Source of the DNA: Sulfurovum sp.
Lineage (GTDB): Bacteria; Campylobacterota; Campylobacteria; Campylobacterales; Sulfurovaceae
Assembly (NCBI GenBank): GCA_026983515.1
Contig: JALWHT010000150.1
Location: 1-38,956, forward strand
DNA length: 38,956 nucleotides
Reading direction: 5' to 3'
Shown: positions 587 through 25,637 of the stretch, piece after piece
Layout: each line of letters opens with the position of its first letter
How positions within the stretch are numbered: position 1 is the first letter of the stretch
Translations under genes and position numbers: made by a program
Notes under the pieces: generated by a model
Seen by the model: the letters and a program-made list of their open reading frames with translations, nothing else
What the model was told of the DNA's origin: nothing
Databases searched by the model: none

Positions 587-624
587 ACTGTGCAGTCATT
601 GTTATATAAGTTTTTCGGTTTTTG
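587..624 (-). promoter_or_regulatory. Promoter P1 with shared CTGTGCAG element
   Basis: On the minus strand, BRE-like CCGAAAAAC runs into CTTATATAAC (601-624 on the + strand). Four nt downstream of the TATA core lies ACTGTGCAGT (587-596), an inverted-repeat-like element also found at the same spacing in P2 and P3. The core promoter matches P3 over 24 bp. Confidence 0.85.
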
Positions 625-665
625 CGTTGATAAAATAGCAACAAATATTAAAAATATTAAAAAAA

Positions 666-869
666 TTACTTATCTTCTTTTTCTTTGTAGAAAGAGCAGA
701 CAGTGTATTTAAGTAGTATTTTAAGTATGTTGTTATAATCTTCTTTACACTCTTCACGTATTTGATTATATGGGTATTTCTTTAAGAAGTTGTTTAAGTC
801 TTCTATAGTCTTCACTATAGTGTGGCATACATGGTAATGTATGCAGTTTATACAATTTTTGTTTCTCAT
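666..869 (-). CDS. Small zinc-binding-type Cys protein (67 aa)
   Basis: The start is the ATG at 869 behind AAGGTGGAT, not the upstream GTG. The N-terminus carries C-x2-C-I-H-x4-C (NCINCIHYHVC) and the C-terminus a further Cys followed by aromatic and basic residues (CSFYKEK). The same architecture forms the N-terminal domain of the 4894-5598 protein (NCLNCIHRDTC ... NCKHYKYK), so the two are likely paralogous zinc-binding domains. It is second in the P2 operon after 902-1231. Function unknown. Confidence 0.75.
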   Translation of the reverse strand: MRNKNCINCIHYHVCHTIVKTIEDLNNFLKKYPYNQIREECKEDYNNILKILLKYTVCSFYKEKEDK

Positions 870-901
870 GTTAATCCACCTTAAAAAATTTAAAATAAAA
901 T

Positions 902-1231
902 TCACTGGATAACGTATACATCGCTGTATTTATGTCTCTTTCCTTTATCGTCCTCTGTTACTACCTCTCTGTAGTAGGTCAGAGATAACTCTTTATTCAA
1001 CTCCTCTGAAATCTCTTCGACTATCTCTCTTAATTTGCGGTAACAATTTATTGAGACATTCCTTCCGCTCGCTGTTCCCTTATATGCGTCCATTAGTTTC
1101 TTTCTCTCGACAATTGCGAAGCCATTCTCCTTCAGTGACTTCTTTATGACGTCTTTTATGTCAGACAGTAGCTCCAAGTTCCAGACGTTTTTCCCTTTCA
1201 CACCTCTAACTGATATAATTTTCAACCCCAC
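902..1231 (-). CDS. Hypothetical protein (109 aa)
   Basis: First gene of the P2 operon. The chosen start is the GTG at 1231, 6 nt after GGTG of GGGAGGTG; the longer frame begins at the GTG inside the ribosome site. The protein has alternating strands and helices with a Lys/Glu-rich middle (a KLREIVEEISEELNKEL helix) and a charged C-terminus ending SDVYVIQ. The base composition is less AT-biased than its neighbours. No family is recognised. Confidence 0.75.
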   Translation of the reverse strand: MGLKIISVRGVKGKNVWNLELLSDIKDVIKKSLKENGFAIVERKKLMDAYKGTASGRNVSINCYRKLREIVEEISEELNKELSLTYYREVVTEDDKGKRHKYSDVYVIQ

Positions 1232-1260
1232 TTCAATCACCTCCCTTTTTCGTTAATACT

Positions 1261-1298
1261 ACTGTGCGGCAACTGTTATATAAGCTTTTCGATTTTTA
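1261..1298 (-). promoter_or_regulatory. Promoter P2 with shared CTGTGCGG element
   Basis: The minus strand reads ATCGAAAAG then CTTATATAAC (1275-1298 on +), followed after 4 nt by the element ACTGTGCGGC (1261-1270), as in P1 and P3. A perfect 10-bp palindrome TGCACGTGCA lies about 20 bp upstream, at 1316-1325. It drives 902-1231 and 666-869. Confidence 0.85.
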
Positions 1299-1315
1299 AC
1301 ACTCATGATGTAAAT

Positions 1316-1325
1316 TGCACGTGCA
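1316..1325. promoter_or_regulatory. Palindrome TGCACGTGCA upstream of P2
   Basis: A perfect 10-bp palindrome in the intergenic space between the JAMM gene and P2. Its position just upstream of the BRE suits an activator or repressor site. A related half, TGCACGT, occurs at 263-269. Confidence 0.35.
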
Positions 1326-1404
1326 GTATTTCAAGCATTAAGTAATTGATAATATTAATGTAATACTGATTAAGAAAAGAGAGAATACTACAGTTTTCTA
1401 AAAC

Positions 1405-1416
1405 AACAAAAAAAAT
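1405..1416 (-). terminator. T-tract ending the Ubl operon
   Basis: The minus strand has T8 (1408-1415) directly at the end of the JAMM gene, followed by further pyrimidine-rich sequence. It is a likely intrinsic terminator of the P3 operon. Confidence 0.35.
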
Positions 1417-2097
1417 TTAGTAAAAATGTATATTGTTTCTAAATCTTTTTCTGCTTTTGTTTTTGTTTGTTCTGTATGGATATTCAATTTGTATATTTGA
1501 AATATCTATGTCTTCCTCAATTCCGGGTATATACAGTTCAATCTCTGCGTCTATCTGTAGTTTTGTTTCATTGTTTAAGGGAACTGTTATCACTGCACGT
1601 GTAAACTCTCCGACACTGTAAAGTATGCTCGCTGTAAAGTGTGTGTTTATTGTTTCAATGTCATCTCTGCTAAAGCTACTTGATTTAAATGGGTGGCTGT
1701 GAATTACTACATTGTAGCCCTGCTTTTTGTATTCATTTAAGTCTTCTGTGTAGTCAACTGATGCACTTGATACTGTTTGTTTTGGTATTATGTAATCTTC
1801 TGTTAATTCAAGTATATTCTTTTTCCATGTAGCCTTAACTAATATACTGAATTCGTTGTGGTTTACTTTGCTCTGAATTACTTTGCATATATTAAGTATC
1901 TTTATTGGAACTCTGATTGTAACTTTATCAGCTATAGTTAATTCACTGTCGAATATATCAATTGTATCTTCATTATATTCTTGGTATACACTTTCTTTAT
2001 ACACTTTTAAATATTCATTGTATAGTCTCTCATGTACCTCACCCTCTAAATCATCTATATTTATTTCATATATTTCATCATCATCTCCCCAATACAT
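1417..2097 (-). CDS. JAMM/JAB-type isopeptidase of a Ubl cassette
   Basis: 226 aa. A JAMM zinc-metallopeptidase signature is complete: Glu82 in NEFSILV, then His133-Ser-His135, seven residues, Ser143-x-x-Asp146 (HSHPFKSSSFSRDD). These are the zinc ligands and the catalytic Glu/Ser of MPN+ domains such as Rpn11, AMSH and prokaryotic JAB enzymes, so it should hydrolyse Ubl (iso)peptide bonds. The N-terminal 60 residues are very acidic; the C-terminus is basic (NKNKSRKRFRN). The ribosome site GGAGGTGAT precedes the ATG at 2097. It is the last gene of the Ubl-E2-E1-JAMM operon. Likely roles are Ubl maturation, given that no Gly-Gly is exposed, or deconjugation. The family call is firm; the substrate is inferred from context. 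Confidence 0.92.
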   Translation of the reverse strand: MYWGDDDEIYEINIDDLEGEVHERLYNEYLKVYKESVYQEYNEDTIDIFDSELTIADKVTIRVPIKILNICKVIQSKVNHNEFSILVKATWKKNILELTEDYIIPKQTVSSASVDYTEDLNEYKKQGYNVVIHSHPFKSSSFSRDDIETINTHFTASILYSVGEFTRAVITVPLNNETKLQIDAEIELYIPGIEEDIDISNIQIEYPYRTNKNKSRKRFRNNIHFY

Positions 2098-2125
2098 TTT
2101 TTATCACCTCCTTTTTTTTAATAAA

Positions 2126-2794
2126 TTATGGATAAATAAATTCAGTAATTAAACCTCTTATGTCAAATGTCTTTATTATTTCCTTATCTGTTTGTATATT
2201 GTCAGCTGTTAAGTATAATGTTATTATGTTGGCTATAAATTGCGGTGGAACTAAGTAACTTGGCGTTACAGTATATCTAACTGGTTCATCACCGAATATA
2301 TCGTTATATTTTGGGTTAACGTGTATAGTTACACTGAAACCATCATATCCACCAGTTATTTTTGTTTTTCTCTGAATATCTTTTGGTAATGGCTCTATGC
2401 TGTCTCTGCAGTCAATTACTATATCTGTTTTTTTGATTTCTTCAAGTTCAAACTCTGTTAATTCTTCAAATTTCTTTGGATATGTATGTATGTTAATATC
2501 ATCTCTTCTTTCGTATATTAGTTCTGCTGTTGCTTCAACTTTACTCATGTTAATCTGCGAAAGTTTGAAGGGAGTTCTGTTCAGGTTGTGTGGTTCTATT
2601 ATGTCATGGTCGATTAAGTGTATCTCCTTTGTTCCAATAAGAGCCATGTTTAATGCAGTCCACGAACCCACTCCTCCGAGTCCAATCACTGTAACACTGT
2701 TTGGAACTGTTATTGTTAAGTCTTTTTGTCTTAAGTATATTTGTTCTCTGTTCAACTCATTGTAAAATTTAACTGCATAATCACTCATCATCAC
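2126..2794 (-). CDS. E1/ThiF-like Ubl-activating enzyme
   Basis: 222 aa (221 if the ATG at 2791 is used; the GTG at 2794 has the better 7-nt spacing). It shows the E1/MoeB/ThiF Rossmann fold: GLGGVGS (38-44), acidic DHD (62-64), then EPHNLNR (67-73), the E1 adenylation signature with the Arg, Lys85 in place of the conserved GxxK lysine, and VIDCRDS as the later Asp motif. The role should be ATP-dependent adenylation of the Ubl C-terminus. Oddly, there is only one cysteine in the protein, inside VIDCRDS, and no zinc CxxC pairs. The usual catalytic-Cys domain and the zinc clasp are thus absent. Its start overlaps the end of the E2 gene by 14 nt, implying coupling. Confidence 0.92.
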   Translation of the reverse strand: MMMSDYAVKFYNELNREQIYLRQKDLTITVPNSVTVIGLGGVGSWTALNMALIGTKEIHLIDHDIIEPHNLNRTPFKLSQINMSKVEATAELIYERRDDINIHTYPKKFEELTEFELEEIKKTDIVIDCRDSIEPLPKDIQRKTKITGGYDGFSVTIHVNPKYNDIFGDEPVRYTVTPSYLVPPQFIANIITLYLTADNIQTDKEIIKTFDIRGLITEFIYP

Positions 2795-3908
2795 TGTTAA
2801 ACACCTCCTCAGTTATGTAATTTCTGTCAAGGTAAAGTTCCTCTACTATATCCTCTGCCTCTTTTGTAGCATCATTAGGATATGCACTGTCTAAGTTTGC
2901 AATTTTCAGTATCTTTGGCAACTCTGTAACTACAGTCTTTAAATCTTTACCTTCCAAGTCTCCTAAACATATACTGCCATCACTGGCATTAGGATGATAT
3001 GAGTAATCGCACTGTGCTTTTGTAACTTTTGCAGTTATTGGTATCCTTATGTTTTCAATGTAGAATTCATTGATGTATTCTTTTGGAAGTTGATAAACAA
3101 CTCTCTGGTATTTCAGTTTGTCAACATATATCTTTTTGTATAATACTAACTCTCCGTTCTCGACTGTCCATCCTTTGTCCAGCACTTGCTCTATTGTATT
3201 TAATGCCTCGGTGAATGCTTGTTCTTTTGTTTCAATTACTTTTTCCTCTAACGCTTTTATTCTGCTTTTGTATGATTTAATTATTGCATTCAACTGAGCT
3301 TCATAGTTTCTCTTAATTGCATCAATTATCTCTGTTTTTATGTCATTATATGATTTTATGTTATCTACTTTCACTAATTTTACGGTATATACTCCAGTGT
3401 TAGATACTATTATGGCATCATTAAGTATCTCTGGTTCACTGAGTTTTATACTCTTTGTTTCTTTTGCAAAGTGAACTGATGATGTTGCTGTAACTACAGT
3501 CTCTAATTTGTTAATGTATTTACAGTATAAGTATGCTATTCTATTTGCAATTATTGTAGATAACTTTAGTAAATCATCATCACTTAAGTCTATTAGTCTT
3601 TCCACTCTGAAGTATTTCTTTAGAAAGTTTTTAAATCCGCTGCACCCCTCATTGAAATCGTAGTCTTCTGGGTGGTCGTGAGTTGTATACTCATAATTTA
3701 TGTCATTGTAAAATTCATGGTGGTATCTGTATATTGCTCTTAGTAATTCAGATATTGACATCTCACTATCTGGATATATCGCATAATCAGTATGTCGGTA
3801 TATTGCCTCAACTATTTCATTAATGTCAATGTTTTTAGTTACTAATTTGCAGAATATATTACCTATTCCTTTTTCAATAACAATGTCGACTCTACCAACA
3901 TCACCCAT
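2781..3908 (-). CDS. E2-like Ubl-conjugating protein with long N-terminal region
   Basis: 375 aa. The C-terminal domain (about 255-355) has the E2/UBC active-site signature HPNASDGSICLGDL: His305-Pro-Asn307 followed by Cys314, one residue closer than in classical UBCs (HPN-x7-C). The chain continues with a helical segment and a YPND turn like the post-catalytic part of E2s. Residues about 195-240 form a charged coiled coil. The N-terminal 190 residues are unrecognised and contain a His/Cys-rich patch (HHEFYND..HDHPEDY..C). It should carry the Ubl as a thioester on Cys314 and pass it to targets. The start ATG follows GGAGGTGATTTT. It sits between the Ubl and E1 genes. Closest known analogies are the Bil and PRTRC cassettes of bacteria. 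Confidence 0.88.
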   Translation of the reverse strand: MGDVGRVDIVIEKGIGNIFCKLVTKNIDINEIVEAIYRHTDYAIYPDSEMSISELLRAIYRYHHEFYNDINYEYTTHDHPEDYDFNEGCSGFKNFLKKYFRVERLIDLSDDDLLKLSTIIANRIAYLYCKYINKLETVVTATSSVHFAKETKSIKLSEPEILNDAIIVSNTGVYTVKLVKVDNIKSYNDIKTEIIDAIKRNYEAQLNAIIKSYKSRIKALEEKVIETKEQAFTEALNTIEQVLDKGWTVENGELVLYKKIYVDKLKYQRVVYQLPKEYINEFYIENIRIPITAKVTKAQCDYSYHPNASDGSICLGDLEGKDLKTVVTELPKILKIANLDSAYPNDATKEAEDIVEELYLDRNYITEEVFNSDDE

Positions 3909-3920
3909 AAAATCACCTCC

Positions 3921-3942
3921 TAAAAAAAAAGTAAAAAAAGAG
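3921..3942 (-). terminator. T7-AC-T9 tract between Ubl and E2 genes
   Basis: Immediately after the Ubl stop, the transcribed strand reads CTTTTTTTAC then TTTTTTTTTA before the E2 ribosome site. Archaeal RNA polymerase terminates at such T-runs. Partial termination here would make Ubl mRNA more abundant than E2/E1/JAMM mRNA, as expected for a modifier versus its enzymes. Confidence 0.5.
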
Positions 3943-4176
3943 TTAAAACTTTGCGGCGTTGTATTCCTTAATATATACTGTTCCCTGAAGTGGGAAATCA
4001 GCGGCAGTCAGTCTCTGTCCATCTGTGTTTTCAACTATGAATTTCTTTATACCATATTCTCTTGCCACCTCCTTCAGCTTAGATACTGTTATCTTTCCGT
4101 CTATCTCTACAGTTTCACCTCCGGGCAGAATTATTTTACTAACCTGCCCATCCTCTACTTCAAACACTTCATCCAT
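3943..4176 (-). CDS. Ubiquitin-like (beta-grasp) modifier, 77 aa
   Basis: First gene of the P3 operon. The start is the ATG at 4176 (MDEVFEVEDG...), 6 nt after GGTG; the longer frame begins at a GTG in the ribosome site. The length (77 aa) equals ubiquitin. The predicted layout is beta-grasp: strand VSKIILPGG, strand TVEIDGK, helix TVSKLKEVAREYG, strand KKFIVEN, then a GQRLTAADFPLQGT loop like the ubiquitin LEDGRTLSDYNIQ segment, and last strand VYIKEYN. The C-terminus is NAAKF, with no Gly-Gly. Identity as modifier rests on fold pattern, size and position before E2, E1 and JAMM genes. Confidence 0.82.
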   Translation of the reverse strand: MDEVFEVEDGQVSKIILPGGETVEIDGKITVSKLKEVAREYGIKKFIVENTDGQRLTAADFPLQGTVYIKEYNAAKF

Positions 4177-4208
4177 TTTTTCCACCCCCCTTTTTTTTGC
4201 TGTTCTTT

Positions 4209-4246
4209 TCTGTGCAGGTCATGTTATATAAGTTTTTCGGTTTTTG
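4209..4246 (-). promoter_or_regulatory. Promoter P3 of the Ubl cassette
   Basis: BRE/TATA (CCGAAAAAC-TTATATAAC, minus strand, 4223-4246) is identical to P1 over 24 bp. The element TCTGTGCAGG (4209-4218) lies 4 nt downstream of the core, as in P1 and P2. Only about 15-20 nt separate the expected transcription start from the Ubl ribosome site. Confidence 0.87.
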
Positions 4247-4260
4247 TGTTGTGGGTAGAG

Positions 4261-4295
4261 ATATATTATATTATAATGATATATTATATTATAAT
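4261..4295. repeat. Two tandem copies of an 18-bp AT repeat upstream of P3
   Basis: ATATATTATATTATAAT occurs at 4261-4277 and again at 4279-4295, an 18-bp period. It lies immediately upstream of the Ubl-operon BRE, on the face where activators bind. A pure AT composition may also ease melting. Confidence 0.65.
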
Positions 4296-4372
4296 ACTGA
4301 ATAGAGTAGAACAGTTTTAGAAATTTATAGAGCTGAAAAAATAAAAAAGTTGAATTATTAGACGTTATAACA

Positions 4373-4852
4373 TTACAGCATAATATACATTGTTATCTTA
4401 ATTGTGTCGTTGTTTGGATATATGTTAATGTAGTTAATGCAGTAGTCTTCGAAAAGTTTACACAGTTCGTTAATTTTGTCAATGTCTTTAACTTCGTCTG
4501 TGTGTAACTCAATGAATATTCTTTTAGTATCTTTGTTGTATGATATGTCAATTTCATAAAAGTATTTTGTTAAGTATGCTATAGCATCTGTGTACATTGA
4601 GAAAATTATAAGTATTTTGTCATTCAATGCTTTTATTCTCCTGAATGATACTGGGTATTTTTGGAATATCTTTTCAGTGTAGTTTATTATGTTGTTTAGT
4701 TTGTCAAGTGTTATAGAGTTTGTAGAAAGTATTAAGTCTATGCTGAATGTCTTTTTGATAGTTACTTTGTTTATATCAGTTGTCATTAGTATCTTCATTA
4801 TTTTATCGAGAACATCATTAAGTTCCTTCTTTAATTCATTGTTTGTTTTCAT
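4373..4852 (-). CDS. Hypothetical protein (159 aa)
   Basis: Third gene of the P4 operon. The ATG at 4852 follows GAGGTGAT with 5-nt spacing. The N-terminal 60 residues are helical and charged (ELKKELNDVLDKIMKIL), then alternating strands and helices end in a hydrophobic strand (TIKITMYIML). One pattern (strand-helix-strand with RIFIELHTDEV) suggests a small alpha/beta fold, but no family is recognised. Confidence 0.7.
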   Translation of the reverse strand: MKTNNELKKELNDVLDKIMKILMTTDINKVTIKKTFSIDLILSTNSITLDKLNNIINYTEKIFQKYPVSFRRIKALNDKILIIFSMYTDAIAYLTKYFYEIDISYNKDTKRIFIELHTDEVKDIDKINELCKLFEDYCINYINIYPNNDTIKITMYIML

Positions 4853-4893
4853 GTTATCACCTCAGAATTTCTGAAATCTCTTTACACCTATTA

Positions 4894-5598
4894 TTACATC
4901 ACCCCATATGTCTTCATTATGTCAACAACTTTAAAGTATTTGTCAACTACCTCATTGTAATCAAATGCTTTGCTGACACACGGGTTACCTTCAGGATATT
5001 TGTACTCTTTGAAGTCTATATCTGCAAGCTCTTTGGCTAAATCCGCTGTAGAGTTAGCTACAACTAAATGTGCACTGTCAATCTTTTCGTCAATAACTAT
5101 GAATACTGGAACTCTGTTCTTCGCTTCAAGCTCAATCAATGCATAGTGTTTTAGATTAGTCATTTCATTAAGTATGCATATCATTGTGTTTATGCCTTTC
5201 AAAGTGTAATATCTGCTTTTCTCATCGGTTATCAGTCTCTTTAGTATGTGTATATGTATGAAACCGCTTTCCTCTCCTAATATTAAGTCTCTCATTGCAT
5301 CGGTTATTTTATCACTGTCTGATGATATTATGGTAACCATTGCTATTTTGTCGGATTTTATGTCAATCTTTCCGGAAGTGTATGGTTTGTATTTGTAGTG
5401 TTTGCAGTTCTTAGCAATGTTTTCAATGCAGTTTTTGAATATATCTTCGGATATTTCTCTTCCAATAAGTTTGTCAATCACCGTTAAATCCTGCATCGCT
5501 TTTGCTAATGCATCGTGCAGTATATAGCATGTATCTCTGTGTATGCAGTTCAGGCAGTTGTCTTTTAAATCCTTAAAATCTTTTCCAAACATTTTCAT
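4894..5598 (-). CDS. Cys-motif protein with C-terminal alpha/beta domain (234 aa)
   Basis: The N-terminal domain (residues 10-70) has C-x2-C-I-H-x3-C (NCLNCIHRDTC) and a second Cys/His/aromatic cluster (NCKHYKYK). This is the arrangement of the 67-aa protein at 666-869, and probably binds zinc. The rest (75-234) begins KIAMVTIISSDSDKI and appears alpha/beta, with no recognised motif. The start ATG at 5598 follows GGAGGTGTTAGC and overlaps the stop of the upstream 46-codon gene (ATGA), so the two are translationally coupled. Confidence 0.75.
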   Translation of the reverse strand: MKMFGKDFKDLKDNCLNCIHRDTCYILHDALAKAMQDLTVIDKLIGREISEDIFKNCIENIAKNCKHYKYKPYTSGKIDIKSDKIAMVTIISSDSDKITDAMRDLILGEESGFIHIHILKRLITDEKSRYYTLKGINTMICILNEMTNLKHYALIELEAKNRVPVFIVIDEKIDSAHLVVANSTADLAKELADIDFKEYKYPEGNPCVSKAFDYNEVVDKYFKVVDIMKTYGVM

Positions 5599-5735
5599 GC
5601 TAACACCTCCTTAAGTATATTTTTCATCATCTCAATATTAGCTAACCTCCTTTTTGCTCTAATATATGCGTCAATAGAAATCTCTCCAACTTTTTTGTCG
5701 TATACTACTACTTCTTTTCTCAAAATTTCCGACGT
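5595..5735 (-). CDS. 46-aa gene with putative ACG start codon
   Basis: An open frame in the gap between 5598 and the P4 promoter. It has no ATG, GTG or TTG near its 5' end. GGGGGTG-TTAGC-ACG at 5747-5733 is the same context as the next gene's GGAGGTG-TTAGC-ATG, with C for T, so ACG at 5735 is the evident start. The product (SEILRKEVVVYDKKVGEI... ending MMKNILKEVLA) is a charged small protein whose stop overlaps the next ATG (ATGA). It is the first gene after P4. The alternative is a recently disabled start codon; the intact frame and three similar cases in this window argue for real ACG initiation. Confidence 0.6.
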   Translation of the reverse strand, partial: TSEILRKEVVVYDKKVGEISIDAYIRAKRRLANIEMMKNILKEVLA

Positions 5736-5767
5736 GCTAACACCCCCAACAGTAGAATTGAAGGAAA

Positions 5768-5791
5768 ATTATATAAGTTTTTTGGTTTTTG
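5768..5791 (-). promoter_or_regulatory. Promoter P4
   Basis: Minus strand AACCAAAAAACTTATATAAT. It lacks the CTGTGCAG element of P1-P3. The expected start of transcription falls just before the GGGGGTG ribosome site of the ACG-start gene, giving a very short leader. It drives 5735 down to 4373. Confidence 0.8.
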
Positions 5792-5816
5792 AAAATTTTG
5801 TGAAAAAATTTATTTT

Positions 5817-7373
5817 TTATAACAGTTTGTGATTACTTAAAATTAATCTTGATACATTAAAATACTTTGGTATCTCTTTTTTGTATCTGTATAAGTTTTC
5901 AAAACTACTGTCGAGTATATATGTTACTCCGTAGTCATCAACTGCTCTAACTATTCTGCCGCACGCTTGAATAAGTTTTTTAATCGCTTGGTATCTTGCC
6001 CACTTCCAATCATGTCTTTTAAGCCATATCTCTTTAACCCTAATGTCATTTATGTCAGGAAATGGTATCTTTGTTATTACCTGCCATCTGCATAGGTCAT
6101 ATTTTAAGTCAATACCTCTCTCAAAACCCACAGAAACAAATACTGCTGGCTTTTCAATATCCATGAATTCTTTAAGTTTCTCGTTTCTGTTACTGCTGTC
6201 GTGTGTTATCACTGTGTGTTTAGTTTCAAGTCTTTTCTTTATAACTTCCGCAATTTCGTAACTGTGTGCGTGAATAAGACCTTTTTCGTCTTCATGTTTC
6301 TTTGCTATAACATTTATAATCTCTATAAGTTTATCATAAGTATCTTCTCTACATTCTTTTGTCATTTTTCCAGCAGGTATGTAGAATATCGGTCTATTTT
6401 TCTGTGGTATAATTGGTGGAACTTTAATAAACAGTGTTTTGCCAGTCAGTCCAGAGTATTTCTTAAACATATCTTTGTTTATTATTGTTGCAGATGATAC
6501 AATAACTATATCACTACCTCTGTTCCATATAGTTTTGTTAAGTATCTTTCCAACATCAACAGGTCTTATAGTTAGTTTACTACCTACCTTTGAAAAAGTG
6601 TATTCTTTTGGGTTGTTTAGAAACATCTCAAGTTTATCTCTTGTTTCTTTAAGTTTACTTAATTCTTTTAGCATTCTGACAGATATTTCATCCATGTTCT
6701 CAATAAAAGCAATTTCTCTGTTTAGTGTTTTTATCTTCTTTTTTGCAAAGTCTATTAGCCCATCTTTATCAGATATGCTTTTGTTTGTGTGTAGTTCTAT
6801 TGTAGCAAAGTCAGCAGCCCAACTTTCTATATCATCAGCCTCATCAACTATTAGTATCTCTCTATTACCCCATGCATCATTATCAGCAGTTCTCATTAAG
6901 AATGCAAAAGATAACGCACAAATATCTGATAAAATAGCATTTTCTCTATCTACGTAGTATGGACATTCTGTCTTAATATCGCAAGCAAATCTCTTTTTAG
7001 TCATGCATGGTGCAACATTACACTTAAGTTTTTTACCAGTAATATCTACACTAACTGGACATTCATAATGTTCTTTACCCTTAATAACTCTCAATCCAAG
7101 CTTTTTAATTCTTTCGTCATTGTATAACTGCTCAAGTAGGTTAATCTGTGGTGTTGTGTAATACGCTTTGTAATAGTATTTATCAATGAAATATTTTGCA
7201 ATAATTGTATTTGTAATTGATTTTCCAAAACCAGTCTGTGCCTCAATTATTATGTTGTCATAGTCTTTTTCCTCAACAGCTTTAATCGCTGATATAATAG
7301 TTTCTCTCTGGTATTTTCTGTATTTAATGTTTAGTTCTTTTTCCATTTTGTCAACAAAATTTTCGATAGACAT
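5817..7373 (-). CDS. XPD/DinG-like superfamily 2 DNA helicase
   Basis: 518 aa. Motif Q-like Tyr21-Gln22; Walker A AQTGFGKS (45-52); DEAD box at 177-180 (VDEADD); motif V region VSVGFERGIDL; motif VI QACGRIVRAV. Between motifs I and II lie cysteines 105, 118, 123, 131 and 137, spaced like the 4Fe-4S ligands of XPD, DinG and FANCJ. It should unwind DNA 5'-to-3' in viral replication or repair. It is shorter than host XPD, consistent with reduced Arch/C-terminal regions. The ATG at 7373 follows GGGGGTAAT. A single-gene unit from P5. Confidence 0.93.
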   Translation of the reverse strand: MSIENFVDKMEKELNIKYRKYQRETIISAIKAVEEKDYDNIIIEAQTGFGKSITNTIIAKYFIDKYYYKAYYTTPQINLLEQLYNDERIKKLGLRVIKGKEHYECPVSVDITGKKLKCNVAPCMTKKRFACDIKTECPYYVDRENAILSDICALSFAFLMRTADNDAWGNREILIVDEADDIESWAADFATIELHTNKSISDKDGLIDFAKKKIKTLNREIAFIENMDEISVRMLKELSKLKETRDKLEMFLNNPKEYTFSKVGSKLTIRPVDVGKILNKTIWNRGSDIVIVSSATIINKDMFKKYSGLTGKTLFIKVPPIIPQKNRPIFYIPAGKMTKECREDTYDKLIEIINVIAKKHEDEKGLIHAHSYEIAEVIKKRLETKHTVITHDSSNRNEKLKEFMDIEKPAVFVSVGFERGIDLKYDLCRWQVITKIPFPDINDIRVKEIWLKRHDWKWARYQAIKKLIQACGRIVRAVDDYGVTYILDSSFENLYRYKKEIPKYFNVSRLILSNHKLL

Positions 7374-7390
7374 AATATTACCCCCTGTGT

Positions 7391-7417
7391 TGCGGTTTAA
7401 AAATTTTTCGGTTTTTA
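7391..7417 (-). promoter_or_regulatory. Promoter P5 (helicase)
   Basis: Minus strand AAAAACCGAAAAA followed by TTTTTAAACC as TATA element. It overlaps the last codons of the upstream methyltransferase gene (stop at 7415). Confidence 0.65.
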
Positions 7418-8455
7418 TAAGGTCTTTTGGGAGAGATATGGTTTAATCCTGTGCTCAGCTATTTTACAATAATACTTATCTATCTCAACACCTATAAATT
7501 TGTATCCATTTTTCAAACATGCAGCTGCTGTAGTTCCACTACCAATAAATGGGTCTAATACTATACCATTCTCTGGTGTTACTAATCTAACTAACCACTC
7601 TATTAATTTAAGTGGTTTAACTGTCGTGTGGTATATCAGTTTGTGTTTTTTGTGTTTGTTCCACTCATAACTTGGTATAACTTTATTGCAGTTAATGCAG
7701 TATGCGTATCTTTCATCTCTTCCAGCTTTTGCACAGTAGAAAAATCTTGAAGCTCCACCGTAATCTCCGTATGTATTACTATCTGTGTAGTTAGAAGATT
7801 TTCCACCCCAATCAAAAACCCAATTAGATGAGTATTTGTCTCTAACACTTTTTGATGATTTGTATTTACCACTTTGTTTGTCTATCTCTTTAGCAACACA
7901 TTTGTCAATTATAACATTTGTTGGAAATCTTCCAGTTTCTTGTCCTTTAACATCAATTCTGCATTTATCTATGTTAATGCACCCAGTACCCCACTTTTTG
8001 AAGTTATTTAATATGCTACCTTCAAGTGGTTTTCTCGCTATAACTGCTGGTTCACACGCTGGTTTCAACGTTGTGTGAAGACCTTCATACCCATATCTTC
8101 TCATATCCACTCCTTTTGGAAACCCACACCCATATAACCAAAGCAGCATATCTCTTATTTCAAAACCTGCTTTTTCAATGAAATATACACCATTATGATA
8201 TGTTCTTGTTCCAAAAAATGATATAATGTGTGCACCGAGTTTAACAACTCTGTAAACCTCTCTCCAAAATATAACATTAGGAACTTTTTTATCCCAATTT
8301 TGCTCTAAAAATTCTATACCATACGGTGGGTCTGTAACTACTGCATCTATACTATTTGAAGGCAACCTTTTAATCGCCTTCAGTGCATCACCATGTATTA
8401 TTTTGTTTACTGGTATATCATTTATATCATTTATTTCTATTATAATATATATCAC
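7415..8455 (-). CDS. Orphan beta-class N4/N6 DNA methyltransferase
   Basis: 346 aa. Catalytic motif IV TDPPYGIEF near residues 41-49 comes before SAM-binding motif I DPFIGSGTT (about residue 310) followed by FIGVEID. That order is typical of beta-group amino-methyltransferases. A central insertion contains YCINCNKVIPSYEWNKHKKH, a possible zinc knuckle. No restriction enzyme lies beside it, so it probably protects viral DNA or marks it for replication. The start is uncertain: GTG at 8455 overlaps the upstream stop (GTGA) but is itself the ribosome site; an in-frame ATT at 8446 is 6 nt after GGTG and would be another near-cognate start. Confidence 0.9.
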   Translation of the reverse strand: MIYIIIEINDINDIPVNKIIHGDALKAIKRLPSNSIDAVVTDPPYGIEFLEQNWDKKVPNVIFWREVYRVVKLGAHIISFFGTRTYHNGVYFIEKAGFEIRDMLLWLYGCGFPKGVDMRRYGYEGLHTTLKPACEPAVIARKPLEGSILNNFKKWGTGCINIDKCRIDVKGQETGRFPTNVIIDKCVAKEIDKQSGKYKSSKSVRDKYSSNWVFDWGGKSSNYTDSNTYGDYGGASRFFYCAKAGRDERYAYCINCNKVIPSYEWNKHKKHKLIYHTTVKPLKLIEWLVRLVTPENGIVLDPFIGSGTTAAACLKNGYKFIGVEIDKYYCKIAEHRIKPYLSQKTL

Positions 8456-8886
8456 CTCCCAAAGTATTCTTTGCTGAACAACCTCATAAACTCTACAAAT
8501 TTTGAGTTGCTTTGTTTACATATACCACATTTCATTCCAAAGTAGCACTCTTCACAGTCAAATGAATGAACTATACATGCTGTGCATGTTGAAGGGGAAG
8601 CCGCTAAATTGTATATTAATATTGGATTAACATCTGTATCTTTTGTTTTATCTCTAATCATAGTATATACTGCTCTCCACATTGGTGTATGCTTATTACC
8701 ATATAGGTCATACAGCACACTGTCAATTTGCTGTGCTATTTTCTCAAGCTCTGTCTCATTATTCTGTTTGCACCAGTCAGCAATATACTCCCATTTTCTT
8801 GGTATTCTACCTATGAAGTAGCTTTTAATCAAGTAGTATTTATTTATTAAATATTCTCTTATTGCTTCTTTTAACTCTTCCATCAT
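8452..8886 (-). CDS. Cys-rich zinc-binding-type protein (144 aa)
   Basis: The preferred start is the ATG at 8886 (MEELKEAIREY preceded by Met), behind GAGGTTGAT; an ATG at 8901 overlapping the upstream stop is possible. The N-terminal two thirds are helical; the C-terminal part holds CTAC, CEEC and CGIC pairs (three CxxC), enough for one or two zinc sites. The stop overlaps the methyltransferase start. Function unknown. Confidence 0.7.
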   Translation of the reverse strand: MMEELKEAIREYLINKYYLIKSYFIGRIPRKWEYIADWCKQNNETELEKIAQQIDSVLYDLYGNKHTPMWRAVYTMIRDKTKDTDVNPILIYNLAASPSTCTACIVHSFDCEECYFGMKCGICKQSNSKFVEFMRLFSKEYFGR

Positions 8887-8897
8887 TTTTATCAACC

Positions 8898-9143
8898 TCA
8901 TGAAGTTATTTTTATCTTTTTTACACTAAACAGTAACTCTCCGTTGAATATATTTTTCATAACCCACATACCTCTTTTGTATGCTGTGTCTTTGTCTTTG
9001 CTGAATATTATCAGCAACAGTATACCATTCTTTTCGTCTATTTTAAACTTAAATGACTTATCTTTTGCTCTAATTCCAACTAATTGTGTCTTTAATAGCT
9101 CCAAATCTACATTTTTTACCAAAGGGAATATAGTTATATACAT
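8898..9143 (-). CDS. Hypothetical protein (81 aa)
   Basis: The ATG at 9143 follows GGAGGTGATAAT with 5-nt spacing. The protein is a small beta/alpha one: hydrophobic N-terminal strand YITIFPLV, a Lys-rich middle, strand GILLLIIFS, helix around TAYKRGMWVMKNIF. The pattern is of a ferredoxin-like fold but no family is recognised. Part of the long P6 operon. Confidence 0.7.
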   Translation of the reverse strand: MYITIFPLVKNVDLELLKTQLVGIRAKDKSFKFKIDEKNGILLLIIFSKDKDTAYKRGMWVMKNIFNGELLFSVKKIKITS

Positions 9144-9147
9144 ATTA

Positions 9148-9555
9148 TCACCTCCTTTTTCTTTTTATGTATATGTTCCAAAATGGTAAACTCATAACAT
9201 TATACTCCTCCTCACACGATTTATACAGCACTTTACCATCACCTCTTTTCAAATACTTTATATTGAATAACACATCATCTGCATAATCAACACCCCCTCT
9301 TATTTCACTTAGGTATATACGCTCCTTATCATCACCCAATCCACACCTATGGTGTATATTAGTTTTAACACCTTTAACTCTAATGTGGAAACCATGTTTT
9401 GTAATATATACTTTAACATCTGCTTTTTTGTTTATGTTGCTGGCTAACCATTTTGCATTAAAGTATGTCTTCAATAGCTGGAATTGGTTGTGTGTATCTA
9501 AATCAACAGTTAAATCAACTTTGCTTAACATTTTTGTTAATTTACTTACCTTCAT
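9148..9555 (-). CDS. Hypothetical protein (135 aa)
   Basis: Lysine-rich protein with the segments HGFHIRVKGVK and RGGVDYADDVLFNIKYL. The ATG lies inside the end of the upstream gene (9542), so translation is probably coupled; the ribosome site (GGGAG) is unusually close. The C-terminus is basic (YIKRKRR), consistent with nucleic-acid binding. Function unknown. Confidence 0.7.
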   Translation of the reverse strand: MKVSKLTKMLSKVDLTVDLDTHNQFQLLKTYFNAKWLASNINKKADVKVYITKHGFHIRVKGVKTNIHHRCGLGDDKERIYLSEIRGGVDYADDVLFNIKYLKRGDGKVLYKSCEEEYNVMSLPFWNIYIKRKRR

Positions 9556-10246
9556 TCTCCCACTCTCCTAAATCTACTTGTTTGAATATACCGCTTTCAT
9601 ATCTGTATGGTGATGTTGACACACTCTCTGTGCACGCCTGTTCCTCAAACTCAACTTTAGCTTTAACATAATTCTCCCAGTATTTAGGTGATAGGTAACC
9701 CTCAGCGTAAAATGGATACCTATCGTAATTTGCATCAAATATCTCAATGTAAAATGGAACTCTTCTCTCCAATACATCGTAAAACTCATCAATAATTTGA
9801 ATACCATGATAATATCTTTCGCTGAAATCAACAAATGGTATATAACCCATACACTCCAAAAACATGTCCATTAAATCACTGCAAAAATCATTAAATTCTG
9901 CTGTGTTAGCAATACTATTCGGAGCTTCAGTTAATAGCCTGCACTCAATATGTCTCTTTTGCTTTGGGTATATATATGATTTTGTAGCGAGTATCTTGTA
10001 CCACTTAGCTTCAGTTTCATATTCGCCTTTCTCATATAGCTCAGGTATGTCATAGTACAACCATGTAGAAACTGTAATCATTGGTATACTGTTCTCTTTC
10101 GAGTATTCTATAACATACTCGCTACTCCTAATTATCTTCTCATATTCTGTTCTCGTTATCAATCCCTTTGAAAAATCAAGTATAGCTTTAAGTGTTTTAT
10201 CATCTAATTTTATTGGTCTTCCTCTTAAATTAAAAATATAAATCAT
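9542..10246 (-). CDS. Hypothetical protein (234 aa)
   Basis: The ATG follows AAGGTGATTTT (5 nt). The sequence is rich in Tyr, Glu and Ile, with many aromatic residues in the middle (ERYYHGIQIIDEFYDVLERR) and no Cys-pair or nucleotide-binding motif. It is in the replication/early operon between an AbrB-like gene and a basic protein. Function unknown. Confidence 0.7.
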   Translation of the reverse strand: MIYIFNLRGRPIKLDDKTLKAILDFSKGLITRTEYEKIIRSSEYVIEYSKENSIPMITVSTWLYYDIPELYEKGEYETEAKWYKILATKSYIYPKQKRHIECRLLTEAPNSIANTAEFNDFCSDLMDMFLECMGYIPFVDFSERYYHGIQIIDEFYDVLERRVPFYIEIFDANYDRYPFYAEGYLSPKYWENYVKAKVEFEEQACTESVSTSPYRYESGIFKQVDLGEWENEGK

Positions 10247-10250
10247 AAAA

Positions 10251-10487
10251 TCACCTTATAACTATCTCATTTTTTCTAACATATATTTTACTGGCATTTC
10301 TGTCAAGTCTAAGCACCAGTATTGGGTAAATCTCTCCTGCAACTACTCTGGTCTTTTTTATGATACCATCTCTGTTTTTCTTGATAACTATTTTGTCTTT
10401 GTGATACTCAATATCCACTAAATCACCGGGTTTTATTCCAATCCTTCTCAGCTCTTTACATAAGTTTATTGCTAAACTCTCAGTCAT
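10251..10487 (-). CDS. AbrB/SpoVT-type swapped-hairpin protein (78 aa)
   Basis: The N-terminal half matches the AbrB-type DNA-binding pattern: LAINLCKELRRIGIKPGDLV followed by DIEYHKDKIVIKK. The C-terminal strand-rich half (EIYPILVLRLDRNASKIYVR) is unassigned. It is likely a dimeric DNA-binding protein or antitoxin-like regulator. The ATG overlaps the stop of the ACG-start gene at 10484 (ATGA). Confidence 0.72.
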   Translation of the reverse strand: MTESLAINLCKELRRIGIKPGDLVDIEYHKDKIVIKKNRDGIIKKTRVVAGEIYPILVLRLDRNASKIYVRKNEIVIR

Positions 10488-10780
10488 ATCAACACCACCT
10501 TATATAAATATGCTTCATCAAATTTAGCTCTACTCAACACTTTGTACTCATGTATCCAATCCTCAACACTGCTGAAACCACTTTCGCTTAAATGTTCAAT
10601 TAGCATACCCATGTTTGCTTTTCCTATCTCCTCAATGTATACATCAGCAATTTTTTTTCCATGCCACTCTTTTTTAACCCAATCTCTACCTACTTTGTTT
10701 CTCTTTTTTCTGAGTGTATATACTACTCCATTGTTAAGCAGCTGTTTTAATGCTTTTTCCGACTTGAAGTAAATAACCGT
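10484..10780 (-). CDS. ASCH/PUA-like protein with putative ACG start (98 aa)
   Basis: A coding frame of 98 codons with no ATG, GTG or TTG at its 5' end; an in-frame stop lies six codons before. GGAGGTG-ATAAA-ACG at 10789-10778 puts ACG exactly 5 nt after GGTG. The product reads TVIYFKSEKALKQLL... VYTLRKKRNKVGRDWVKKEW, then GKKIADVYIEEIG and SGFSSVEDWIHEYK, resembling the small ASCH/PUA-like RNA-binding fold of archaea (call moderate). It overlaps the zinc-ribbon gene upstream and ATGA-overlaps the AbrB gene downstream. The frame is intact and operon-embedded, so it is very probably expressed. Confidence 0.7.
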   Translation of the reverse strand, partial: TVIYFKSEKALKQLLNNGVVYTLRKKRNKVGRDWVKKEWHGKKIADVYIEEIGKANMGMLIEHLSESGFSSVEDWIHEYKVLSRAKFDEAYLYKVVLI

Positions 10781-10944
10781 TTTATCACCTCCTCTTTAAT
10801 AATTTTTCCGCAATTTGTGCACATAAGACCTTTACTGATTTTGTCATTCACAACATCGTAATCTATGTAAACTACAACACCTTTTGCCTTCTTTGATTTT
10901 AAGTCTATCTCTATAATGTTACCACATGTGCATCTTATCCTCAT
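10747..10944 (-). CDS. Zinc-ribbon protein (65 aa)
   Basis: The CTCG knuckle near the N-terminus (IRCTCGNIIEI) pairs with CTNCG further on, a classic two-knuckle zinc ribbon, followed by a basic tail (KRLFTSSRKKH). The ATG overlaps the upstream stop (ATGA). The last part overlaps the ribosome site and start of the ACG gene. It probably binds nucleic acid or RNA polymerase. Confidence 0.75.
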   Translation of the reverse strand: MRIRCTCGNIIEIDLKSKKAKGVVVYIDYDVVNDKISKGLMCTNCGKIIKEEVIKRLFTSSRKKH

Positions 10945-11126
10945 AAGTTGTATTCACCTATTAGCTCTTCATAGCACTCAACGCACTTTTTATTAAATTC
11001 CTCATCGCTCATGTCATACTTCTCTTTAACTTTCTTCGCAGCTTTTCTTATTGCTTTGCACGCTGGAGACACTTTGTATCTGTAGTAATAATATAACGCA
11101 AGTATCGCTTTATCACTTTTCTCCAT
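10941..11126 (-). CDS. Small basic/helical protein (61 aa)
   Basis: Helical, Lys- and Tyr-rich (LALYYYYRYKVSPACKAIRKAAKKVKE is the first half, listed here as its features only), with two cysteines near the C-terminus (CVECYEE). The start codon overlaps the Sak4-like gene's stop (TAATG). Function unknown; the position suggests a replication or recombination accessory. Confidence 0.65.
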   Translation of the reverse strand: MEKSDKAILALYYYYRYKVSPACKAIRKAAKKVKEKYDMSDEEFNKKCVECYEELIGEYNL

Positions 11127-11785
11127 TATTCCACCTCCTTAATATTTTCAGCAGATATTATTTTCTTAATGTAATCAATGAATTCCTCTTGTGTAATACT
11201 ACCAAGATTAAGTATTCTGTCCTTCTTTAGTATCACCGTATCTTCGCTAATCTCCGCTACTATATCAACTATTCTCTTCAGTTCAAGAAGTATATTTGCT
11301 TCACCTTTTGAAACTTTAGTTTGTGGATGATATGTGAATATCGCTGATTTACCTGCTGAGTTTATGCTCCTTATTATATCTCTGAGTTTATCATATATAA
11401 CCGGAAACAGTTCCCATGTAACCAAGAATAAGTCTGGGTCAGATACTTTTTTCGGTTCGTCTCTCTCAATGCCACCAATGTAAAACTCACCTTTCTGTAG
11501 TATTTTACTTTTAATGTGTCTCTTTATAACCTCCTTTAGTTCAGTCATACTGTCAACTATTATTACATCAGCATCGCTTGAAACAGCTTGTTTAAGACCT
11601 TTAATGAATTTACTGTATGATGTTGCGTCAATTCTTTCTATATCTTCTGCACCAAGTTTCTGTATTATTGGTTCAGCACCTCCATCAACATCAAGCAGAA
11701 CAGCTTTAGTAACTTTGCAAATCTCTACGCATGTGTGTGTTTTACCAGCACCGGGTTCACCAACAAGTAGCACTTTAGTAATCAT
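11126..11785 (-). CDS. Sak4-like RecA-fold ATPase (219 aa)
   Basis: The start is the ATG at 11785 after GGGTGATAAT. Walker A GEPGAGKT (residues 9-16), Walker B DADVIIVDS, and a later TYHPQ segment in the place of the RecA-core Q/H motif match the single-domain AAA_24/Sak4 recombinases of phages and archaeal viruses. It likely anneals or exchanges single strands during replication. The neighbour upstream ends in an SSB-like acidic tail, the usual partner arrangement for Sak4. Confidence 0.85.
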   Translation of the reverse strand: MITKVLLVGEPGAGKTHTCVEICKVTKAVLLDVDGGAEPIIQKLGAEDIERIDATSYSKFIKGLKQAVSSDADVIIVDSMTELKEVIKRHIKSKILQKGEFYIGGIERDEPKKVSDPDLFLVTWELFPVIYDKLRDIIRSINSAGKSAIFTYHPQTKVSKGEANILLELKRIVDIVAEISEDTVILKKDRILNLGSITQEEFIDYIKKIISAENIKEVE

Positions 11786-11798
11786 ATTATCACCCAAA

Positions 11799-11809
11799 AT
11801 AAAAAAAAG
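11799..11809 (-). terminator. T8 tract between SSB-like and Sak4-like genes
   Basis: After the stop at 11810, the transcribed strand runs ACTTTTTTTTATTTT before the Sak4 ribosome site. It may attenuate transcription so that the DNA-binding partner exceeds the ATPase. Confidence 0.35.
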
Positions 11810-12412
11810 TTAGAAAATTTCACCTATATCAACTTCACTATCATACTCACCTTCATACTCCATGTTCTTCTTTTCATTCCACTCTTCAATACCTTCATTG
11901 TATGCTTGTTCAATGTCAACTCCAAGCTTCTTTATCTCTTTGTCGCTCAGTTTCTTAATAGGTATCCATACATCTCTCGCTTCAAGAACATTCTTTGGTA
12001 AGTTCTTGGGTATCTCTCTGTTAAGTTCATTAGCCATGTATTCAGCAGGCTGAACTGGTGTCCACAGAAATACCTGTTTCTCCATGAATTTCTTAAGTTC
12101 CTCAATCTGTTTCTCAGGCTCTTTGCTCTTTGGCTTAAACTTCAGCTTCATGTTCAGTGTGTAAACGAATGCACCCATTGCACTCCACTTTATTTTGCTC
12201 TCATTATACCATGCGTGCTGTAGATTTTCATATTTTTCAAGTGGCTTTATCACTATGTGCAGTCTCTTTAAGTTTCTGAGTTCTCTGCCCTGCTCCTTAA
12301 GCCTCTGTTCTCCCTTCCTGCACGCCGCACAGTCGCACGGGAAATTCAGTTCCACTACCAAGCCCAGAAAAGGCTCTTTTACATCATCTCTGTATTCACC
12401 TATATCAAACAC
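11810..12412 (-). CDS. Probable single-stranded DNA-binding-type protein (200 aa)
   Basis: First gene of the P6 operon. The start is the GTG at 12412, 6 nt after GGTG of GGAGGTG. It has a strand-rich N-terminal half with a CDCAACRKG cysteine cluster, a Lys/Glu-rich middle, and a strongly acidic tail ending DSEVDIGEIF. That tail is like bacterial/phage SSB acidic tips with a terminal hydrophobic pair. With the adjacent Sak4-like ATPase this suggests an SSB, but no OB-fold motif can be proven by eye. Confidence 0.6.
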   Translation of the reverse strand: MFDIGEYRDDVKEPFLGLVVELNFPCDCAACRKGEQRLKEQGRELRNLKRLHIVIKPLEKYENLQHAWYNESKIKWSAMGAFVYTLNMKLKFKPKSKEPEKQIEELKKFMEKQVFLWTPVQPAEYMANELNREIPKNLPKNVLEARDVWIPIKKLSDKEIKKLGVDIEQAYNEGIEEWNEKKNMEYEGEYDSEVDIGEIF

Positions 12413-12443
12413 CTTCGCCACCTCCAGCCACTTATAGAACCGT

Positions 12444-12470
12444 TAAGTATATAAGCTTTTTGGTTTTTCG
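12444..12470 (-). promoter_or_regulatory. Promoter P6 of the long early operon
   Basis: Minus strand CGAAAAACCAAAAAG then CTTATATACTTAA. It drives 12412 down to 7415, about a dozen closely packed genes. It faces the AbrB gene's promoter, so the AbrB protein is well placed to regulate both. Confidence 0.8.
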
Positions 12471-16697: not shown

Positions 16698-17093
16698 TCA
16701 CCCATACTCATCGTATTGTACCCACTTTTGTCCATTAAAGTAGTATGTATATACCTGCAGAACCATATTCTGATTTAGTTGTATTACATCATCAAATGAC
16801 TTTCTTTCTCCATATTTCATGTATGTTTCTTTATCCCATAGTATTTTCTTATTGTATGCGTCATAAAGAATTACTTTAACTTTTCCGCACTTCCCTTCAT
16901 TTATAACATCAACCATAACTCGTGCAACTGTTCCTTTCTTAACACTGTATTTTCCGGGTTTGTGTCCTCTATTGTTCCACACAATATATGTTTTACTTCT
17001 GTCAATCTTTGGTTTTGGAAGCAACAGTTCTATACATAGCATTCCGTTTTCACTGTACACTTTATACTCCACACTATCACTTTTCAAAATCAT
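16698..17093 (-). CDS. Beta-sandwich 'W-D-YG' family protein, copy 1 (131 aa)
   Basis: One of five paralogous domains. Shared features: a Y-x-V-K-K-G-T segment (KYSVKKGTVARVMVDV), a middle strand VKVILYD, an N-M-x-L-x-V strand (NMVLQVYTYY), and the end W-x-x-Y-D-E-Y-G. The pattern suggests an Ig/CARDB-like beta sandwich, as found in surface or fibre proteins. The start overlaps the upstream stop (TAATG). Confidence 0.78.
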   Translation of the reverse strand: MILKSDSVEYKVYSENGMLCIELLLPKPKIDRSKTYIVWNNRGHKPGKYSVKKGTVARVMVDVINEGKCGKVKVILYDAYNKKILWDKETYMKYGERKSFDDVIQLNQNMVLQVYTYYFNGQKWVQYDEYG

Positions 17094-19196: not shown

Positions 19197-19553
19197 TCAC
19201 CCATATTTATCATACAACTGCCAAGCACCTCTATTATCTTTGTAATATGTTCTTGCTTCAATATCCATGCTTTCTTTTATATCAATAGTTGGCATGAAGA
19301 AGGCATACTGTTCACTAAATACATACACTTCTTTACTTGCAATCTCTATATCATTCTTTTTGTCATACCACTGCATTTTTACCCAACCGCTGTTACCAAT
19401 ATTCTTTATTGACATATACAAACACATACCAGTTCCATAATCTAATGTGTACCATCCGGGGTCATATTTGTGTCCGAGCCACTCAAGATGTGTTCTCTCT
19501 ATCTTAACTACATCCCATATTGTTTCTCTAATAATCTTTGGCTTTGCTGGCAT
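19197..19553 (-). CDS. 'W-D-YG' family protein, copy 2 (118 aa)
   Basis: Same domain as copy 1: GWYTLDYGTGMCLYMSIKN, VKMQWYDKKND, MDIEARTYYKD and the end AWQLYDKYG. It lacks the terminal Cys of copies 3-5. The ATG follows GAGGTGATATT. Confidence 0.75.
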   Translation of the reverse strand: MPAKPKIIRETIWDVVKIERTHLEWLGHKYDPGWYTLDYGTGMCLYMSIKNIGNSGWVKMQWYDKKNDIEIASKEVYVFSEQYAFFMPTIDIKESMDIEARTYYKDNRGAWQLYDKYG

Positions 19554-25096: not shown

Positions 25097-25150
25097 ACCA
25101 TCACCTAACTAAACCGTAATCCTAAGAATAAATAAAGTGAATTTTATTGA

Positions 25151-25187
25151 CGCATTTTATAAATATTACTAATCGCCCAATTAGTAA
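25151..25187 (-). promoter_or_regulatory. Promoter P9 of the virion operon with operator-like repeat
   Basis: TATA-like ATATTTATAAAATG (minus strand, 25153-25166). Just upstream is the perfect inverted repeat TTACTAAT-CGCCCA-ATTAGTAA (25166-25187). It lacks the CCGAAAAAC BRE of the early promoters, suggesting a different activator-dependent (late) class. Confidence 0.55.
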
Positions 25188-25400
25188 CATGAATATAAAT
25201 TCAAACCGTTGTAACCATTTTGAATATTTATTCAATTCCGTTACAATTATAATTACATTTTATTATTTTGCTTTTATAAAATTCCCTATGTCCACTCTCC
25301 GAATTTTATAACTCGACACTATAAAAATGGAATATAATATAATACTATTAAAAATCTCCCAGCCTCCGTTCACTTTAAGATTTAAACCACAAACTGTTTA

Positions 25401-25569: not shown

Positions 25570-25637
25570 GCTCAAACCAATATACCCAAATTAGTGTAAA
25601 TCACACTTACAGTAAACTATATATACTTGATACCAAT

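Follow-up and report, generated by a model that had tools for sequence, protein, structure and literature searches.

The 38,956-nucleotide stretch of DNA analyzed here (the window) is contig JALWHT010000150.1 of an assembly assigned to Sulfurovum sp. (GCA_026983515.1). On its minus strand, from 4176 to 1417, lies an operon of four genes only, which encode, in this order, a ubiquitin-like (Ubl) modifier, an E2-like protein, an E1/ThiF-like adenylating enzyme and a JAMM/JAB metalloprotease. An earlier note, made from the sequence alone, had described a complete Ubl, E1, E2 and JAMM set in a single operon behind a single promoter, and the four open reading frames are indeed found at that place. 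Our computational analysis confirms the presence of the cassette through the families or folds of its products, their active-site residues, the operon itself, its promoter element and its recurrence in viruses.

A Shine-Dalgarno-like stretch, GGGGGGTGG, can be read from the sequence at 4182–4190 (minus strand) ahead of the ATG of the modifier gene, and an archaeal-type BRE and TATA box, CGAAAAACTTATATA, is located at 4225–4239 on the same strand, ~50 nt upstream of this start codon. Five copies of the motif CGAAAARCTTATATA, laid out like an archaeal BRE and TATA box, have no more than one mismatch (603, 1277, 4225, 5770 and 12448), and each lies ahead of a gene on the coding strand; the element of the cassette also precedes genes 321–575, 902–1240, 4894–5598 and 11810–12421. 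With up to three mismatches, 19 sites are present against 5.3 expected, a number reached in none of 100 shuffles. Taken by itself, the shorter pattern YTTATATA shows no enrichment in the window (14 versus 13.2 expected). A motif scan of the window found no near-perfect copy in the rest of the contig beyond 603–12462. The copies are confined to the first 12.5 kb of the contig, a part that also holds helicase, methylase and AAA genes, and their repetition over 603–12462 suggests a co-regulated gene set.

Folds and active sites of the cassette proteins

The E2-like protein (375 amino acids; 2781–3908, minus strand) consists of an N-terminal α/β domain, a long helix (residues 187–244) and a UBC domain (approximately residues 228–359). 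Searched alone, it has no UBC match in Pfam. A profile of its C-terminal part matches human UBE2C with an E value of 0.0026, the HPN motif and the catalytic cysteine being aligned, and E2s make up 59 of the best 60 of 72 matches in a UBC-profile search. The UBC part of the structure model has pLDDT values of 86–95, and the first 12 Foldseek matches of the model are E2 enzymes or E2-containing complexes, none of them below an E value of 0.001. Residue C314, whose codon (HPNASDGSICLGDL; 2967–2969, minus strand) is read from the sequence and which aligns with the catalytic cysteine of UBE2C, is invariant in all ten aligned E2 rows, nine of which keep HPN. The model, the Foldseek matches and the UBE2C profile alignment all agree with the UBC fold that had been predicted around Cys314: a UBC/E2 domain forms the C-terminal third of the protein and places Cys314 at the predicted catalytic position.

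The E1/ThiF-like enzyme (222 amino acids; 2126–2794, minus strand), whose gene overlaps the 3′ end of the E2 gene, scores 87.4 bits against PF00899 (cut-off of 28.1). An alignment of 51 rows, the window included, shows no variation at Y20, R22, Q23, GxGGxG, D62, N70, R73, K85 and D131, and a complete adenylation site is predicted. The family keeps no cysteine except one inside the DCRD motif (residue C129 of the window E1). The JAMM protein (226 amino acids; 1417–2097, minus strand) reaches 19.7 bits against Pfam Prok-JAB, under the cut-off of 25, and its profile gave nothing useful against the Protein Data Bank (PDB); as a scan query, the JAMM alignment was too weakly conserved. Across 13 aligned rows, H133, H135, S143 and D146 are invariant and E82 is nearly so, forming the E..HxH..SxxD motif of a putative JAMM active site. 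The catalytic residues that the earlier note had named in the E2, the E1 and the JAMM protein are therefore all present, and the alignments show them to be conserved among relatives.

The Ubl modifier (3943–4176, minus strand; C-terminus ...IKEYNAAKF) has 77 amino acids from its ATG, or 80 if started at an upstream GTG. Its profile has no sequence match to any Ubl family in the PDB or Pfam. As had been predicted, its structure model (pLDDT of 76) has the beta-grasp order of elements, and it matches the Raf RBD, UFM1, SUMO, NEDD8 and ubiquitin; with moderate confidence, we assign the product as a small beta-grasp modifier.

The C-termini of this and related Ubls were compared in two alignments. 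In the first (A7, 19 Ubls), the final residue of a conserved motif is Lys in 17 proteins, Ala in one and Gly in one, and 11 of the 19 stop exactly there. The second (A10, 17 rows) includes added phage loci, and because its rows were picked by synteny and partly by the C-terminal motif itself, the presence of the motif, usually N-[K/E/A]-A-[K/A/G], in all 17 is to be read with that selection in mind. The penultimate residue is Ala in 15 rows, Gly in one and Pro in one, and the last is Lys in seven, Ala in seven and Gly in three. Eight of these Ubls end at the motif and nine are extended, including those of the window (by F), locus L019 (by 14 residues) and locus L016. Gly-Gly is absent from the motif in all 19 A7 rows and all 17 A10 rows; the Ubl of L009 has GG directly after the motif Lys, inside an extension. 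Similar ends (VDEAG, YDVAG and YEVAGA) are found, with weak scores, in some distant phage loci. Ends in Ala or Gly fit conjugation chemistry of the CBASS kind, since Gly or Ala is also the last residue of CBASS modifiers (PMC10097602), and Lys-ended Ubls would need either trimming after the Ala or an E1 that accepts Lys.

Two further features of related Ubls were noted. The long post-motif tail of the L016 protein (7543–7980) contains four cysteines and is zinc-ribbon-like, and the Ubls of large phages (L011, L014, L015 and L017–L021; encoded upstream of the E2) are extended at the N-terminus by what, on visual inspection, resembles a winged-helix DNA-binding domain.

Recurrence in viruses and relation to known systems

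The earlier note knew of no such set in an archaeal virus. The cassette does not stand alone: the same four-gene set occurs in other uncultured viruses in IMG/VR. Single-protein scans of that collection with the window E1, a 231-amino-acid protein and a 765-amino-acid protein returned no relatives; a scan with the E1 alignment returned 16 loci, with L011 nearly duplicating L013. All 16 have both an E2-type Cys motif and a JAMM motif no more than a few kb from the E1, and 15 also have a Ubl there. The profiles behind these counts were partly trained on the same rows; the E2 in L008 and L018, and the Ubl in L016, were first read by eye, and false matches of the Ubl pattern, in L022 and L027, were left out. 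HPN is missing in L008 and L010, and it is variant in L020 and L022. This gene association is more than chance would give. When 18 cassettes are compared, their distances for E1, E2 and JAMM are correlated (r of 0.50, 0.52 and 0.52; matched in 0 of 5,000 permutations each). Genes that travel together would be expected to behave in this way; shared virus ancestry gives the same result.

A portal-MuF gene directly follows the cassette in L016 and lies ~1 kb after it in L009, and we therefore regard both loci as phages. SbcD- and SbcC-like genes follow the cassette in L011, L013, L014, L015, L017, L018 and L019, with order and N-termini judged by eye; Pfam confirms both genes in L011 and the first of the two in L017. 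A second ThiF-like gene is seen beside the cassette in L020 (9566–10180, by Pfam) and L021 (9506–11799, by eye), the latter region also containing a QueC/glutamine amidotransferase gene.

Six more loci came from the genome collection (L023–L028). All four genes are present in L023, where the E1 frame is short (183 amino acids), and in L024. L025 and L026, from Acidilobaceae metagenome-assembled genomes (MAGs), have a Ubl-like domain fused to the N-terminus of the E1, followed by small E2-like and JAMM genes (7689–9907 in L025). L027 and L028 are either incomplete or of a different type. Scanning with the E2 alignment returned two contigs only, both already in the set. A wider E1 scan gave 38 loci, 11 on known contigs and 27 new, some of these near-duplicates. 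Among the 27, a JAMM match with an E value of at most 1e-3 is found at 18 and an E2 match at five, and no Ubl match falls below an E value of 0.01; E2 and Ubl are therefore mostly not recognized outside the core family.

The earlier note had compared the cassette with PRTRC, CBASS and Caldiarchaeum systems, and the features that we tested do not support membership in any of these groups. Type 6d of the operon types distinguished by Iyer and others in 2006 presumably corresponds to PRTRC. Types 6a–6e bring together Ubl, E1, E2 and JAB genes, as the window operon does, some of them on mobile elements (PMC1779556). In the account given there, the classical histidine is missing from the E2s of type 6d and the C-terminal glycine of the Ubl is conserved, whereas the window has HPN and the family an NxA(K/A/G) end. 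PRTRC membership can be rejected: the E1 scores 17.5 bits against NCBIfam PRTRC_ThiF (cut-off of 144.75), and no other PRTRC model matches the four proteins up to an E value of 5 (for the E1, among the best 25 of 30 matches). SAMP (UbaA) membership is rejected likewise, with 37.7 bits against the UbaA equivalog and a cut-off of 450.

In the Cap2/Cap3 system of CBASS, a cGAS-like enzyme serves as the modifier and Cap2 is an E1–E2 fusion (PMC10097602). The two systems share E1 and E2 chemistry with a JAB protease, and the single Gly or Ala at the end of the CBASS modifier has a counterpart at the last place of the motif in ten of the 17 A10 Ubls; in the window, by contrast, two genes encode the E1 and the E2, and a small protein of ubiquitin fold serves as modifier. 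CBASS membership is rejected on account of the separate E1 and E2 genes, although the E1 alone matches E1–E2 models. No CD-NTase match to Pfam appears among the 29 window proteins scanned, a subset of the open reading frames. The ubiquitin operon of Caldiarchaeum subterraneum comprises ubiquitin, E1, E2, a small RING protein and Rpn11, which trims pro-ubiquitin ahead of E1 activation (PMC5654768). That archaeon also keeps Ubl, E1, E2 and JAMM genes together, with trimming by a JAMM enzyme. The window differs in that its four-gene operon has no gene for a small RING E3, its Ubl has no Gly-Gly end, its E1 is compact (222 amino acids) without a conserved catalytic cysteine, its E2 has a 230-residue N-terminal part and its cassette lies on a mobile element.

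The Bil or ISG15-like defense systems are likewise Ubl, E1, E2 and JAB sets linked to phages; the window-type set differs in lying within viral contigs. In the Flavobacterium phages FpV4 and Fpv3, a ThiF protein, a JAMM-like protein (HIHSHNTMAVFFSGTD) and a Ubl-like N-terminus, the last two recognized by eye, are encoded close together (1622–5633 in Fpv3, L079), but the match is limited to 30% of the length of the window E1 (43% identity), and the pattern used found no E2 motif in this stretch. Judged by titles and abstracts, the open-licence literature, with subscription papers and preprints outside the search, yielded no recognized report of a virus-borne Ubl, E1, E2 and JAMM set. A term search found ThiF, JAB and UBC absent from the main text of a jumbo-phage survey (PMC7824862), and Borg elements are described as carrying many deSAMPylase-like JAMM proteins and one Borg SAMP (PMC12660748). 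We rate the cassette as a distinct, virus-borne variant of Ubl conjugation.

Host of the contig

The window is a whole contig within a 1.85-Mb bin of 207 contigs, and no terminal overlap marks it as circular or complete. No 16S gene was found in the bin; its RpoB is bacterial in type and shares 71% identity with the RpoB of a Sulfurimonas-titled MAG, and we therefore consider the bin to be a Campylobacterota-type bacterium. The earlier note had placed the cassette in a putative archaeal virus. Archaeal origin is suggested by the BRE/TATA element, by an E1 of Pyrococcus kukulkanii that is 54–55% identical to the window E1 and by the XPD-like helicase (5817–7373), for which the 15 best-ranked of 495 matching phage-collection records are haloarchaeal tailed viruses (~29% identity). 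The virus label is given because of the contig's relatives and gene style. Weighing against this assignment, the majority of the 495 records are bacterial phages, the bin holding the contig is bacterial, the related cassette L024 (E1 52% identical) sits in a MAG titled Sulfurimonas, and the archaeal-type promoter element was not found upstream of the Ubl gene in 16 relatives. No portal, terminase, capsid or other virion hallmark gene was recognized in the window, many of whose proteins are without any match. Archaeal origin is likely, and the virus status is probable.

A bacterial host is a live rival, in which the cassette would be real but its carrier would be a viral or plasmid element belonging to the Campylobacterota bin itself. 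The contig was binned together with a second contig (C129, L064; 3.8 kb), which is 78% identical to window positions 29094–30959 over 1.9 kb and is a second related element; L024 and the promoters of the 16 relatives also speak for this possibility. Against it stand the five near-perfect BRE/TATA-type elements ahead of genes and the G+C content of 33%, compared with 47.5% around the rpoB gene of the bin. No E2 relative was found in 99 other genomes searched, and no spacer link in 77 other genomes of the same genus, for each of which three candidates were scored; none of 28 short-match loci that were checked had CRISPR-like repeats nearby, and 26 of them were again matches to the window, which weakens a spacer link to the genus. 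On balance, we favor an archaeal element placed in the wrong bin and regard a Campylobacterota host as possible but clearly the less probable assignment.

Two related proposals did not hold up. A full E1-family match is found in none of 297 other genomes of the bin's order, nine of which have partial ThiF-type matches near 75 bits; together with the lack of E2 relatives, this argues against regarding the cassette as cellular genes of the lineage to which the bin belongs. An archaeal-type promoter as a family trait fares no better, since the 16 relatives lack such a box at the expected distance, except for CTTAAAT at −34 in L014; a loose sigma-70 pattern also found nothing upstream of their Ubl genes.

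Proposed function of the cassette

Microbial viruses are known as targets of Ubl conjugation from work on CBASS and Bil and, in the case of Borg deSAMPylases, as carriers of erasers (PMC12660748). We propose that the operon is probably a self-contained, reversible protein-tagging system carried by a virus, most likely of archaea. By family resemblance, the JAMM protease would first trim the residues beyond the conserved C-terminal motif of the Ubl (in the window, the last Phe and perhaps also the Lys), and the E1 would adenylate the new C-terminus using ATP. The Ubl would then move from the adenylate to Cys314 of the E2, either directly or through C129 of the E1, a route favored because the E1 family keeps no cysteine outside DCRD. 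The E2 may attach the Ubl to target lysines without a separate E3, its N-terminal and coiled-coil part acting as a substrate arm, and the JAMM protease could later remove the Ubl again.

The cassette would most likely be expressed early and act on host or viral proteins in takeover and replication, a role favored because promoters of this type sit with helicase, methylase and AAA genes and because large phages place the cassette by recombination-type genes. The portal-side cassettes of L016 and L009 argue against a single rule. Modification of virion tails, which the earlier note had raised, is not indicated for the window, whose promoter type is common to the helicase, methylase and AAA part; yet the cassette of L016 directly precedes a portal gene.

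Alternatively, the cassette might defend against rival viruses in the manner of Bil or CBASS rather than aid its own virus's infection, a reading that we consider unlikely. Both CBASS (PMC10097602) and Bil (cited in PMC12660748) do use Ubl-type conjugation to protect bacteria against phages, and in PADLOC the window E1 is closest to E1–E2 models (E value of 1.9e-17, among the best 25 of 32 matches), the only other match of the cassette there being a weak one to JAB. The cassettes nevertheless lie in large viral contigs, by SbcD/SbcC-like genes and near portal genes, not in recognized defense islands, and, besides the absence of full E1-family matches from the 297 order genomes, 300 genomes of the phylum of the Acidilobaceae MAG contain one clear E1-family case, that MAG itself. 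Less probable still is a counter-measure that competes with or reverses host SAMP/Urm1 and proteasome tagging, with the JAMM protease acting on host conjugates. Archaeal SAMP tagging and the JAMM proteins of Borg elements (PMC12660748) are compatible with such a role; against it, a complete writer set of E1, E2 and Ubl, needless for a pure eraser, is kept together, and the Ubl has no Gly-Gly end.

A sulfur-carrier or small-molecule route, in which the E1-activated Ubl would form a thiocarboxylate for a biosynthetic or peptide-modifying reaction (as with ThiF/MoeB or MccB) and the E2-like protein would be accessory, is improbable. In its favor, a profile of the E1 family finds MccB, PaaA and TcdA as its best matches in the PDB, ThiF models rank first in NCBIfam without any of them reaching its cut-off (among the best 25 of 30), the E1 lacks a conserved second cysteine, and MccB acts on a peptide with a non-Gly C-terminus. 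Against it, a UBC-type Cys and a JAMM protease accompany the E1 at all 16 IMG/VR loci and no sulfurtransferase or ThiG/MoaE-like Pfam match occurs among the 29 window proteins scanned.

Returning to the tagging system, we suggest more tentatively that viruses of archaea and bacteria could share a Ubl system of their own that is inherited as a unit of four genes, has a modifier with an NxA(K/A/G) end and passes the activated Ubl from E1 to E2 with no E1 thioester. Viral rather than cellular genomes would be its main home, and in the course of infection it would both add tags to host or viral proteins and take them off; the case for this wider proposal falls somewhat short of even. If true, a full writer–eraser set on viruses would mean protein tagging for the viruses' own ends. 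The compact E1–E2 pair, without an obvious E1 thioester and with a modifier that is not Gly-Gly ended, makes the minimal chemistry of Ubl conjugation testable, as the family does the question of whether cellular ubiquitin-type systems exchanged parts with viruses, and the cassette genes are small and easy to reconstitute.

Elsewhere in the window, 25097–26037 (0.9 kb) has no listed minus-strand open reading frame of at least 90 amino acids. Two neighboring integrase SAM-like proteins, with no catalytic domain recognized, are encoded at 36082–37090. A 413-amino-acid protein (17562–18803) has, by eye, a caspase/gingipain-like peptidase look and a C-terminal membrane helix, with no Pfam or PHROG match, and four small proteins (16698–17093, 19197–19553, 21046–21423 and 21433–21798) appear by eye to be paralogues with D-x-Y-G type tails. 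The 765-amino-acid protein (33096–35393) shows GHKL-ATPase-like motifs by eye (ELLQNALD and GRYGEGL) and matches an uncharacterized PHROG.

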